Of a stretch of DNA of 56,589 nt, positions 6,817-16,720 are shown in pieces. Position numbers and translations under genes: made by a program. The notes under the pieces were generated by a model. It saw only the letters and a list, made by a program, of their open reading frames with translations. It was not told the origin of the DNA and ran no database searches. Every line of letters begins with the position of its first letter. Within the stretch, counting starts at the first letter, position 1. The stretch is taken from assembly GCA_005882135.1 (NCBI GenBank), contig VBDR01000032.1, positions 1-56,589 of the forward strand, read 5' to 3'. The DNA is from Chloroflexota bacterium (GTDB lineage: Bacteria > Chloroflexota > Dormibacteria > Dormibacterales > Dormibacteraceae).

Positions 6817-6842
6817 CTCTTTCCGCGCCCCTCTTGCCACAG

Positions 6843-6864
6843 CCCTCTCCCCTAGGGGAGAGGG
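6843..6864. terminator. Perfect 22-bp GC-rich palindrome between convergent genes
   Basis: CCCTCTCCCCT mirrored by AGGGGAGAGGG gives an uninterrupted 11-bp arm in each direction. It lies between the stop of otsA (plus) and the stop of the YggT-like gene (minus). Placement suggests a bidirectional terminator, although no T-run follows. It could also be a dispersed intergenic palindrome; no second copy was seen in this window. Confidence 0.5.
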
Positions 6865-14223: not shown

Positions 14224-15759
14224 GTGTCAGCCTTCCCCCCAACGTTTCTAAGAAGGATGAATCCAGGCTCAGAGTCGGGCGGGAGCTACGCGATCGACGT
14301 GCTTGGCACGCTCGCCAGCGGGCTCGAAGTCGACTCGAGAGACAGCGGACGGAAGGCGCTCGCGGTCGTCCGCGAACGTTCCCCTGAGCTGATCGTGCTC
14401 GGCGAGAAGACCGGTGAGGATCTCGTCACCACGTCGGCAGGCTTCATCGAGATGATGCTGGCATCGCTTCGCAGCGACGTTGCCCTTCCGTGGCCTGACT
14501 TCGAACAGCGCTCACACGAATATGGGCGCTTGAGGGCGGCGCAGGGGATGCCCCTCGAGTCCCTCATCGACGTGCTCGCCGTTTACCGGCGCGCCACGAT
14601 CGAGCTGGTCTCGCGCCCGATCCAGGGCAAGCCTCACTACGACGAGATCCTCGCGCTGGCGCAGAGCCGGCTCGAGGACGTGACCGAACGGCTGACGGCC
14701 GCGATCGCGCGCGGTTATCTCGACCACATCGATGAGGAGCACCGCGCCCGCGAGAGCGAGATGTACGGCCTGGCGGCCATCGTCACCGCGATGGGACGAT
14801 CGCTCGACCTTCAGGAGACTGCCGAGGTCGCCCTGGTCGAGGCGCTCGCTGCGCTCCGCCTGAGCACGGGCGCCGTGTGGTTGCGCGAGCGATCGTCATA
14901 CAAGCTGGTCCACACCGTGGGTCTCGACCAGGACCAGGTCGACTATTTCGCGCGCCAGGTCGGTCCCCACGTGAAAGCCTCGGCCTCGGCCATCGGCAGG
15001 TCTGAATCACAGGTGGACCGCATCTCGAGCCAGGAGTGGAACGCGTTGCGTGCGCAGCTGCGCGTGCGAGGAAGGACCGTCGGCATGATGAGCGTCGGCA
15101 CCATGGTCGACCGGCTGTTCAGCGCGGCCGACCTGCTCTTCATGGCGGCGGTTGCCGACCAGGTCGCGATTGCGATCGACCGCGCGCGCCAGTTCGCGAG
15201 CGAGGCGCGCACCGACCACCTGAGCGGCCTGGCGAACCGCCGCGAGTTTGAGCGTGTGATGGAGCGCGAGGTTGCGCTGGCTGAACGCCACAACCGGCGG
15301 CTGTCGCTGATGATGATCGACCTCGACAACCTGAAGCGAATCAACGACCGCCTCGGGCACAGCGCGGGAGACGGAGCGCTGAAGCTCGTCGCGCAGCAGC
15401 TGCAGCGCGTCGTCCGGGCTTCGGATGTCTGCGCGCGCGTGGGCGGCGACGAGTTTGCGGTCGCCATGCCGGAGACGGACCTCGATCGCGCTCGCGATGT
15501 CGCCCTGCGCCTGCGCCGCGCCGTCGAACAGGCGGCCCTCGGGATGCGGGCCCCAGAGCACGTCGAGGTCAGCGTAGGCATCGCCGCCTGGCGGCCCGGG
15601 CAGGACTGGCAGGGCGTCTATCAGGCAGCAGACACAGACCTGTACGAGGACAAAAAGCGGCGCAAGACGGTTCGGCGATGGCAGCAGGAGGAGCAGCAAC
15701 CGCCGGCGATCCGGATCCTGGGTCGATCGGGCAGCCGCCGACGGATCTCGGGAGCGTGA
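14224..15759 (+). CDS. Diguanylate cyclase with GAF-like sensor (GGDEF)
   Basis: A 511-aa cytoplasmic enzyme predicted to make cyclic di-GMP from two GTP. Residues ~20-170 form a helical N-terminal domain of the kind seen in RsbR-type or PucR-like sensors. Residues ~185-325 look like a GAF domain (ALRLSTGAVWLRERS ... VADQVAIAIDRAR). Residues ~335-490 are the GGDEF domain, with GGDEF at 15442-15456 and the product-inhibition I-site RASD exactly five residues before it, so both catalysis and feedback look intact. The start is uncertain: GTG 14224 is taken; ATG 14257 has AAGAAGG but with no spacer. No EIL (EAL) domain is attached. The neighbouring sigma factor and two-component genes make this a signalling cluster. 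Confidence 0.92.
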   Translation: MSAFPPTFLRRMNPGSESGGSYAIDVLGTLASGLEVDSRDSGRKALAVVRERSPELIVLGEKTGEDLVTTSAGFIEMMLASLRSDVALPWPDFEQRSHEYGRLRAAQGMPLESLIDVLAVYRRATIELVSRPIQGKPHYDEILALAQSRLEDVTERLTAAIARGYLDHIDEEHRARESEMYGLAAIVTAMGRSLDLQETAEVALVEALAALRLSTGAVWLRERSSYKLVHTVGLDQDQVDYFARQVGPHVKASASAIGRSESQVDRISSQEWNALRAQLRVRGRTVGMMSVGTMVDRLFSAADLLFMAAVADQVAIAIDRARQFASEARTDHLSGLANRREFERVMEREVALAERHNRRLSLMMIDLDNLKRINDRLGHSAGDGALKLVAQQLQRVVRASDVCARVGGDEFAVAMPETDLDRARDVALRLRRAVEQAALGMRAPEHVEVSVGIAAWRPGQDWQGVYQAADTDLYEDKKRRKTVRRWQQEEQQPPAIRILGRSGSRRRISGA

Positions 15760-15782
15760 AGTATGAGAGGGAACCCAGAGGT

Positions 15783-15888
15783 GGTATACGGTTGGGACTT
15801 TTCTAAATGGCTGCTCGTAGCGACGTTTGGCAGACGTTAGAAACAAAGTCGCGGCCGGGGTGAACCCGGCCGCCAATTCGACGTCGGT
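15783..15888. repeat. 106-bp direct repeat, copy 1; candidate structured RNA
   Basis: Identical over all 106 bases to 15959-16064. Two stacked hairpins are predicted. The first is a long stem (GACTTT 15796-15801 with AAAGTC 15845-15850, TCTAA 15802-15806 with TTAGA 15837-15841, CTGC with GCAG, and an apical CGT-AGCG-ACG hairpin). Directly after it comes a perfect 9-bp GC stem (GCGGCCGGG / CCCGGCCGC, 15851-15873) with loop GTGAA. TATACG at 15785-15790, preceded by TG one base away, resembles an extended -10 box placing a start at the base of the first stem. AGGGAACCCAGA occurs both just before this copy (15768-15779) and just after it (15889-15900). Confidence 0.9.
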
Positions 15889-15922
15889 AGGGAACCCAGA
15901 TGGTGACACTCACCCTCTCATC

Positions 15923-15945
15923 GGCCGGTCGCTTCGCGACGGGCC
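15923..15945 (+). terminator. Hairpin with pyrimidine tract between the two repeat copies
   Basis: GGCC-G-GTCGC-TTC-GCGAC-G-GGCC forms a stem of nine pairs interrupted by one G-G mismatch, followed by TGCTCTTCTTTCC. It could end transcription from the diguanylate cyclase gene or from repeat copy 1. A second small hairpin, GGTGA-CAC-TCACC, sits at 15902-15914. Confidence 0.45.
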
Positions 15946-15958
15946 TGCTCTTCTTTCC

Positions 15959-16064
15959 GGTATACGGTTGGGACTTTTCTAAATGGCTGCTCGTAGCGAC
16001 GTTTGGCAGACGTTAGAAACAAAGTCGCGGCCGGGGTGAACCCGGCCGCCAATTCGACGTCGGT
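15959..16064. repeat. 106-bp direct repeat, copy 2; candidate structured RNA
   Basis: A perfect copy of 15783-15888, offset by 176 bases. The hairpins fall at 15972-16026 and 16027-16049. The TATACG box is at 15961-15966, but the preceding bases differ from copy 1 (CCGG rather than GTGG). It ends 17 bases before the stop codon of the response regulator on the other strand. Perfect identity in non-coding DNA implies a recent duplication or gene conversion. Confidence 0.9.
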
Positions 16065-16081
16065 GAAGAAGAGGGTTCTTG

Positions 16082-16720
16082 CTATTCGACGAGAGCCAGC
16101 TCGCGCGCTTTGACGATCGCCTCCAGCTTGGAGTGGACCCCGAGCTTGCTGCCCAGGCTCCGGATGTGAGTCCGCACCGTGGTGTAGCTGATACCGAGCT
16201 GGCTGGCGATCACCCGGCTTGACGTTCCTTCCGCCATCAGGCGCAGCACCTCTTTCTCGCGCGCCGTCAGCCGCTCGAGCTGCGCCTCCACCTCGCGGCG
16301 GCTGTTCAGCAGCTGGGCGATGCTGCGCGGCGTGAACAGGGTCCCGCCTGCGGCGACCTTGCGGATCGCGTCGACGACGTCCTGGGCGGCTCGTGACTTG
16401 TGGATGAAAGCGCTCGCGCCCACCTCGAGCGCGGCGAAGCGCGCGGCGTCGCTGTCCTCTCGGGTCAGGAAGATGAGCTTGGCGTCCGGCCGCAGCTGCC
16501 TGATGGCGGCGGCCGCATCCGCCCCCGTTCCGTCCGTCAGCCGGAAATCGACGAGCACGAGGTCGGGCTCGAGCTCGGAGGCGCGAACGATCGATTCCGC
16601 GACCGAGCCCGCGTGCCCGATCACCTTCATGTCCTCCTGGTCGTTGATGAGCGCGGCCAGACCTTCGGCCACGACCTGGTGGTCCTCCACCACCAACACG
16701 CGGGTTGGTTCGCCCTTCAC
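16082..16720 (-). CDS. NarL/LuxR-family response regulator
   Basis: A 212-aa two-component regulator. The receiver domain (residues 6-122) has the acidic pair Glu12/Asp13, phospho-acceptor Asp58 (LVLVDFRL), Thr86 and Lys108. The C-terminal LuxR helix-turn-helix (about 147-205) reads LTAREKEVLRLMAEG then GISYTTVRTHI. GTG 16720 starts three bases after the histidine kinase stop, so kinase and regulator are co-translated. It should bind DNA when phosphorylated by its partner; targets are unknown. Confidence 0.94.
   Translation of the reverse strand: MKGEPTRVLVVEDHQVVAEGLAALINDQEDMKVIGHAGSVAESIVRASELEPDLVLVDFRLTDGTGADAAAAIRQLRPDAKLIFLTREDSDAARFAALEVGASAFIHKSRAAQDVVDAIRKVAAGGTLFTPRSIAQLLNSRREVEAQLERLTAREKEVLRLMAEGTSSRVIASQLGISYTTVRTHIRSLGSKLGVHSKLEAIVKARELALVE

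Follow-up and report, generated by a model that had tools for sequence, protein, structure and literature searches.

Three-strand covariation in a dispersed repeat of the Dormibacteraceae that often follows stop codons: a candidate intrastrand triplex

The window analyzed here, the whole 56,589-nt stretch of the Dormibacteraceae contig VBDR01000032.1, carries one sequence twice between two convergent genes, which raises the question of whether the pair is an RNA gene, a mobile repeat or a structure of another kind. An earlier note had described it as a perfect 106-bp duplication and a candidate new structured RNA or non-autonomous element. On sequence comparison the two 106-bp copies (15783–15888 and 15959–16064) were indeed 100% identical, with 70 bases between them. 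The convergent neighbors were a GGDEF gene on the plus strand and a LuxR-type response regulator gene on the minus strand, and Pfam (PF00990 and PF00072/PF00196) agreed with the diguanylate cyclase and the two-component system that had been read from the letters.

The window pair and the complete element

The 9-bp GC stem with the loop GTGAA was found exactly as described, at 15851–15873 and 16027–16049, and a single window copy was predicted to fold at −41.2 kcal/mol (z −2.45; 2 of 200 shuffles were equally low). TATACG had been proposed as a −10 box, but a search of 15600–16200 for promoters of the sigma-70-like type returned none. Rfam gave no match to the window element, in line with the note's remark that no known RNA family fits; three sub-threshold matches in related loci did not lie over the element. 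Nor do the 106-bp copies stand alone as the repeat unit: each forms the 3′ portion of a longer element, which begins at 15763. The full unit is a dispersed repeat of 160–190 bp, comprising a 13-bp hairpin (hp1), a GC hairpin (hp2), a pyrimidine linker and a core that ends in the hairpin P3. The features of the locus are as follows.

14224..15759, plus strand: GAF-GGDEF diguanylate cyclase gene (open reading frame; Pfam PF00990, E 6e-43)
15763..15775, plus strand: 5′ (purine) arm of hp1, unit 1 (by-eye comparison with intact copies)
15783..15888, plus strand: core of unit 1, the first copy of the earlier note (100% identical to 15959–16064)
15851..15873, plus strand: P3 hairpin of unit 1, 9 bp, loop GTGAA (some pairs kept via double changes in related copies)
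15889..15921, plus strand: degenerate hp1 of unit 2 (sequence, by eye)
15923..15945, plus strand: hp2 of unit 2, GC hairpin in the second loop of the putative triplex module (sequence; the stem covaries in relatives)
15946..15958, plus strand: pyrimidine linker of unit 2, the proposed third strand (sequence; parallel covariation with hp1 in relatives)
15959..16064, plus strand: core of unit 2, the second copy of the earlier note (sequence identity)
16027..16049, plus strand: P3 hairpin of unit 2 (sequence)
16082..16720, minus strand: convergent LuxR-type response regulator gene (open reading frame; Pfam PF00072/PF00196)

The stop codon of the diguanylate cyclase gene (TGA, 15757–15759) lies 3 nt upstream of the element. 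Compared with other copies, unit 1 lacks the 3′ arm of hp1, hp2 and the linker, and hp1 of unit 2 is degenerate and without ATGAG; therefore, the window pair is a rearranged tandem duplication. By eye, the 3′ arm of hp1 in unit 2, CCCTCTCAT (15913–15921), could pair with ATGAGAGGG at 15763–15771, and the linker of unit 2 has one base more than its relatives. The sequence AGGGAACCCAGA borders copy 1 on both sides, yet it belongs to hp1. Judged from its sequence, the triplex module of the window itself is broken, and the key structure falls outside the stretch that had been described earlier.

In aligned copies, hp1 reads ATGAG NNNN AACC, a loop and GGTT NNNN CTCAT; the linker has ~10 nt, mostly TGCTC NNNN T.CC; and the core (~110 bp) runs from GGTATACGG through P3 to GCRACG. 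Examples of arm and linker types of the intact 5′ module are GAGAGGAA with CTCTCCTT and GAGCGGAA with CTCACCTT. The second loop, which holds hp2, measures 19–30 nt. When 41 elements were aligned with plain MAFFT, RNAalifold returned hp1, the base of hp2 and P3 only, with double changes at 9 of the 26 predicted pairs in these stems, the kind of compensatory change that the note had proposed to look for. These alignments support selection on the structure of hp1, hp2 and P3.

The long bipartite stem of the note fared differently: it folds in the window copy, but it had no conserved-helix support across 83 related cores. The lower P2 stem was rejected as conserved, with −4.60 kcal/mol for own partners versus −4.68 for swapped ones (z 0.5), as was the closing stem P1, with own partners slightly worse than swapped (z 2.5); the upper part of the long stem gave a weak signal (z −3.0). 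Coding from the ATG of hp1 was also rejected, as the linker occurs in all three phases (36, 33, and 16 of 85 elements) and loop lengths vary. A GC hairpin followed by a sense-strand T run, as in an intrinsic terminator of the upstream gene, was found at P3 in none of the 85 elements. The motif GCRACGYYGG was seen by eye twice per element, in the upper P2 loop and behind P3 (e.g., in 15959–16064).

A linker that changes with the first hairpin

The first pass of the search gave 136 rows, false readings included. Removing the 51 rows that had no P3 match behind them, some of which were probably real elements with an altered P3, left 85 elements. In these, changes in the linker went along with changes in the hp1 stem, in parallel register: an A-T pair faced T/A, a G-C pair faced C/T and a C-G pair faced mostly A. 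At column 6, the triples were A-T with T (44), G-C with C (23), C-G with A (7) and others (11). C-G pairs at this column faced A in all seven cases of the 85-element set and in all six of a held-out set; at column 7 they did so in 1/4 (0/2 in the 85-element set and 1/2 in the held-out set).

A mutual-information scan of the 85 elements was led by five Watson-Crick pairs of hp1, hp2 and P3; the hp1–linker pair 6-63 came sixth, 8-65 was near the top and 7-64 was much lower. Off-register couplings (6-65 and 8-63) scored too, because subtypes link neighboring columns, and therefore the register rests on base matches. Among seven parallel shifts, an excess of matches was observed at register 0 only (z 8.3). 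Antiparallel pairing of the linker with hp1 was rejected, since 7-64 and 8-65 fit the parallel register alone; one antiparallel offset reached z 8.9, and by its indexing it includes the same 6-63 pair.

Nearest-neighbor pairs were then compared, with distances measured without hp1 and the linker. Among the 66 pairs for column 6, the linker had changed in 18 of 23 pairs with an arm change and in 6 of 43 without (p 3e-7). Columns 7 and 8 gave p values of 2e-4 and 4e-6, and column 9 showed no covariation in the 85-element set (p 0.75). In permutations, which ignore relatedness, the 136 first-pass rows had 338 matching cells versus 276.4 (sd 7.6), a value reached in 0 of 10000 permutations; their 52 distinct combinations, from this set with false readings, had 105 matches versus 82.7 (0/10000). 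The 57 held-out elements from a further search had 149 matching cells of 228 versus 113.4 (sd 5.4; 0/5000), and their 27 distinct combinations had 66 of 108 versus 47.3 (0/5000).

On a tree built without hp1 and the linker, supported independent pairs numbered 6, 6, 2, and 8 for column 6 (two tests), column 7 and column 8, respectively. The linker moved in the expected way in 3.4, 4.8, 2.0, and 5.4 of these pairs and in the opposite way in 0.0 (averages), with median p values of 0.25, 0.06, 0.5, and 0.06. Two control columns displayed no direction, and a Watson-Crick partner scored 6/6. A third strand that matches the purine arm of the hairpin, i.e., a mirror repeat, is present and imperfect in many copies; the commonest combination, GAGAGGGA with CTCTCTTT (21/85), matches at two of the four variable positions only. 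The three-strand covariation repeats in the held-out elements, as an intrastrand triplex would predict, and from this pattern we infer that such a triplex may form.

Distribution, place behind stop codons and inheritance

The half of the earlier proposal that concerned a dispersed element was borne out when copies were counted in the own genome and in relatives; the half that concerned an RNA gene was not, given the promoter and Rfam results above and the G.U counts below. BLAST with one copy gave 12 matches in its own genome, and 32 of the 42 family genomes had matches (E ≤ 0.001). The hp1 pattern occurred in 30 of the 42, with 1–36 matches each and at least five in 22 of them; control matches numbered 0. 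In a sample of the phylum, 6/251 genomes contained hp1, the spacer and CTGCTC, and all six belonged to the same family. The exact P3 pattern was found in 70 stretches of named genomes, many of which were true relatives and some not. Carriers of the full element were MAGs titled Chloroflexi or Candidatus Dormiibacterota, plus one labeled Acidobacteria (CRAIB_MAG57), which is perhaps mislabeled or mis-binned (locus L107). To judge from these matches, the element is confined to one family of Dormibacterota/Chloroflexota in the genomes searched. Plasmids gave no match, and viral contigs gave none to two exact patterns; by these absent matches, plasmid or viral carriage was rejected. The contigs are MAG fragments, and ORFs were called by open frame.

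Variant arrangements were also observed. At one locus (L014:250–545), the core alone, without hp1, hp2 and the linker, was repeated in a tandem array with a 94-nt period, and this array sits behind a gene for a small Lys-rich protein and its intrinsic terminator. Two loci (L230 and L164) had three tandem hp1 hairpins behind one gene, and in L164 a gene-start-like fragment recurred between the hairpins.

For the elements with enough upstream sequence (77) and ORFs of at least 100 codons, the start of hp1 followed a same-strand stop codon at ≤5 nt in 39/77 and at ≤12 nt in 44/77; the other 33 had no same-strand stop within 12 nt. The mirrored test on the 3′ side gave 8/80 and 15/80 for the same distances, measured from an arbitrary 3′ boundary (12 nt past P3) that by itself spreads the 3′-side distances. 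T directly preceded hp1 in 74/84, and some elements followed an intrinsic terminator (by eye). The seven upstream proteins scanned with Pfam were P-II, ribosome recycling factor, MerR, solute-binding protein family 5, alpha/beta hydrolase, PCRF and zinc ribbon. Dispersal and three-strand covariation are accompanied by sense orientation and, in about half of the elements, by a position just behind a stop codon.

Orthologs of the window gene had the element at 2 of the 24 sites listed (the window and genome G008). The frr gene was present in 40/42 family genomes, and 6 of the 30 frr loci listed carried the hp1 pattern, with four more recognized by eye (L224, L232, L234, and L238). In L224 and L232 (genomes G021 and G020, respectively), the frr stop codon is the TGA within the ATGA of hp1, so that the element and the gene overlap. 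Elements behind the same gene were near relatives on the tree: 29 elements at 11 shared sites required 12 changes, versus a mean of 21.1 and a minimum of 18 in 200 shuffles. Together with the absence of the element from orthologous sites, this kinship indicated that some sites received their insertion long ago and others have none.

Competing explanations and known triplex repeats

Whether the fold would form in DNA or in RNA was addressed with the pairs themselves. G.U pairs made up 2/1105 in hp1, 5/802 in hp2 and 2/739 in P3 of the 85-element set, where parts of hp1 and P3 were fixed by the search patterns and hp2 was free, compared with 14/165 in seven tRNAs of the fetched loci. This scarcity, together with the missing promoter and sense terminator above, leans toward a DNA-level fold. 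At columns 6–9, the purine code of the antisense strand explained 258 of 334 cells and the pyrimidine code of the sense strand 230; over all ten positions the sense code was ahead (730/844 versus 676/844), because the invariant U-A pair faces G in 83/85, and G is an accepted third base facing U-A in the pyrimidine motif. Some arm-linker cells fit neither code. Since the proposed third strand runs parallel to the purine arm and comes from the foot of the hairpin, as class III requires, the hp1-hp2-linker module on the sense strand would be a class III (pyrimidine-motif) intrastrand triplex by published definitions; by our own derivation, the same letters on the antisense strand would form a class I purine-motif triplex. 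In the sections of Holder et al. (2015, PMC4666352) drawn on here, classes I/II on one strand go with classes III/IV on the other.

The alternative at the RNA level, which we regard as unlikely, is a 3′-UTR element: the mRNA of hp1, hp2 and the linker would be a pyrimidine-motif triple helix just behind the stop codon, which would block 3′ exonucleases or reopen with each terminating ribosome and would thereby tie mRNA stability to translation. The sense orientation and the short distance to the stop codon are more natural for such a role, the invariant U-A pair facing G agrees with it, and the sense strand folded lower than the antisense strand in 60/85 elements. According to the same sections of PMC4666352, RNA can form pyrimidine-motif triplexes and not purine-motif ones. 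However, G.U pairs are nearly absent, and in 28 cells of columns 6 and 8 A faces A-U, which is odd for an RNA code, whereas the same cells are normal as T facing A-T in an antisense purine motif. Relative to shuffles, moreover, the two strands were equal (z −5.49 sense and −5.59 antisense). Purine-type repeats of a similar build, which are plentiful in these genomes (below), also point to DNA. On these counts we lean toward a fold in single-stranded DNA rather than in mRNA.

Three further readings concern the element as a whole. It could be mobile and non-autonomous, like a MITE, its hairpins being of use to a transposase only, with the post-stop position due to target choice and purifying selection; the many copies, some of them tandem, the presence or absence at orthologous sites and the T before hp1 fit this, and we consider it possible but on the doubtful side. 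Y1 transposases (REP/RAYT, IS200/IS605; PF01797), the family searched for, occurred in only 1 of the 42 genomes, and that one was element-free, which also led us to reject a REP/RAYT- or IS200/IS605-derived repeat. No target-site duplication, which the earlier note had named as a sign of a MITE, or terminal inverted repeat was established, plasmids and viral contigs gave no match in the searches above, the sites are inherited, and a transposase alone would leave the mirror-type covariation unexplained. In that one genome (G018) there were 11 Y1 matches and neither core matches nor the hp1 pattern. Quite improbable is an arm-linker match without any triplex, arising from shared ancestry of a few subtypes or from a protein that recognizes each strand separately. 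Three arm types do account for 66/85 elements, the tree-based independent pairs are few, and there are misfits at columns 7 and 9 and in the commonest combination. Against it, there are eleven arm types among the 85 and more in the held-out set, distinct combinations alone kept the signal in both sets, the two control columns lacked such a direction, and a mirror repeat is the product of neither direct nor inverted duplication. Still less credence goes to the idea that antisense or convergent transcription is ended by the core as an intrinsic terminator, with P3 and then GACTTTGT on the antisense strand. Both window copies fit the minus-strand pattern (2 found, 0.7 expected, sd 0.9), and at least 5 T in 8 positions occurred on the antisense side in 31/85 elements and on the sense side in 0/85; but 54/85 have no T tail, and the element also lies between frr and a gene of the same direction (by eye).

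The closest known kind is the PIT elements/BoxC/TM-ECO, which are bacterial intrastrand-triplex repeats (Holder et al., 2015, PMC4666352, and the earlier Hoyne and Maher papers cited there), and by analogy the present element would work likewise. The sections of that paper drawn on describe PIT-type repeats as mostly purine motif, with an ITxF search that used stems of 6–15 nt and loops of 1–6 nt, and TM-ECO as class II, of the GGGNGAGGG type and 37 nt long. In E. coli, TM is described there as neither favoring a strand nor keeping a fixed distance from genes, and no association of TM-ECO with transposons, phages or plasmids was found. The triplexes form in vitro and are linked to genome instability, with no sign of a general regulatory role in the same sections. 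Set against these descriptions, the likeness lies in a hairpin and a mirror-symmetric third strand on one strand, in the intergenic location and in the many copies per genome. In contrast, the sense strand of the Dormibacteraceae element would fold as class III and its antisense strand as class I; a ~110-bp core is attached, the second loop holds the hairpin hp2 and at 19–30 nt is beyond the ITxF limit, and, unlike TM, the element is sense-oriented, often 2–5 nt behind a stop codon, with three covarying strands. A search of the whole window for the TM pattern CCCTCNCCC..GGGNGAGGG..GGGNGAGGG gave no match.

REP/BIME elements with RAYT transposases are likewise dispersed intergenic hairpins near gene 3′ ends; in contrast to them, 41 of the 42 family genomes have no Y1 transposase, and the element is longer and has the third-strand feature. 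RNA triple helices of the ENE/MALAT1 type are eukaryotic, with U-rich loops and an A-rich tail; the likeness is that of a triple helix proposed at a transcript 3′ end, and no relation is claimed. Another set of repeats in genomes of the same bacterial family, of a purine type (CTCCCC..GGGGAG..GAGGGG), was detected in 37/42 genomes, with up to 127 matches (both strands, one genome) and control matches ≤2. By eye many of these have a like layout, with a hairpin, often a small GC hairpin and a mirror third strand. They also occur behind frr and the orthologs of the window gene, where in some sister genomes they take the same places after the stop codon. They differ from the element in the purine motif on the listed strand and in that no core was seen, and they occur in both orientations relative to the gene (L254 and L249). 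By eye they resemble class II intrastrand triplexes with a hairpin second loop. One lies in the window (6828–6860, minus strand).

The explanation to which we give somewhat better than an even chance is that two units of a dispersed, non-coding repeat, with a three-strand 5′ module and a role at gene-end boundaries, stand here as a rearranged tandem pair. One strand of the 5′ module would fold on itself three times: hp1 would form, hp2 would fill the second loop, and the linker would return from the foot of hp1 to lie as a third strand against the purine arm of this hairpin. The 3′ module is the conserved core that ends in P3. Folding may take place while the stretch of DNA after the last codon is in single strands, either in the wake of the terminating ribosome and polymerase or as the region is replicated, and the folded boundary element may then impede polymerases or strand invasion at gene ends, a barrier function we infer from sequence and position. 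The repeat would spread by rare duplication or insertion and then be inherited at its site.

Only tentatively do we go further, to a gene-boundary element in which selection acts on the three-stranded fold itself, and which would act on polymerases or nucleases, as a switch or a barrier, at the point where ribosomes come off the message. Neither a Dormibacterota repeat of this kind nor third-strand covariation was the subject of any paper in our literature search, with most subscription papers out of reach and the absence thus unproven; as a part of this tentative reading, the element might be, within the literature searched, the first bacterial repeat family in which base triples covary. Change of the third strand along with the stem would be evolutionary evidence for selection on the triple-stranded state. 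The natural variants, including the rare-pair code (C-G facing A at column 6), are directly testable, and through its stop-codon spacing the element can be tested for a connection with the ends of translated regions. Bacteria have triplex-capable repeats in abundance, and the importance of their third strand in cells is the question that the Dormibacteraceae element may help to address.
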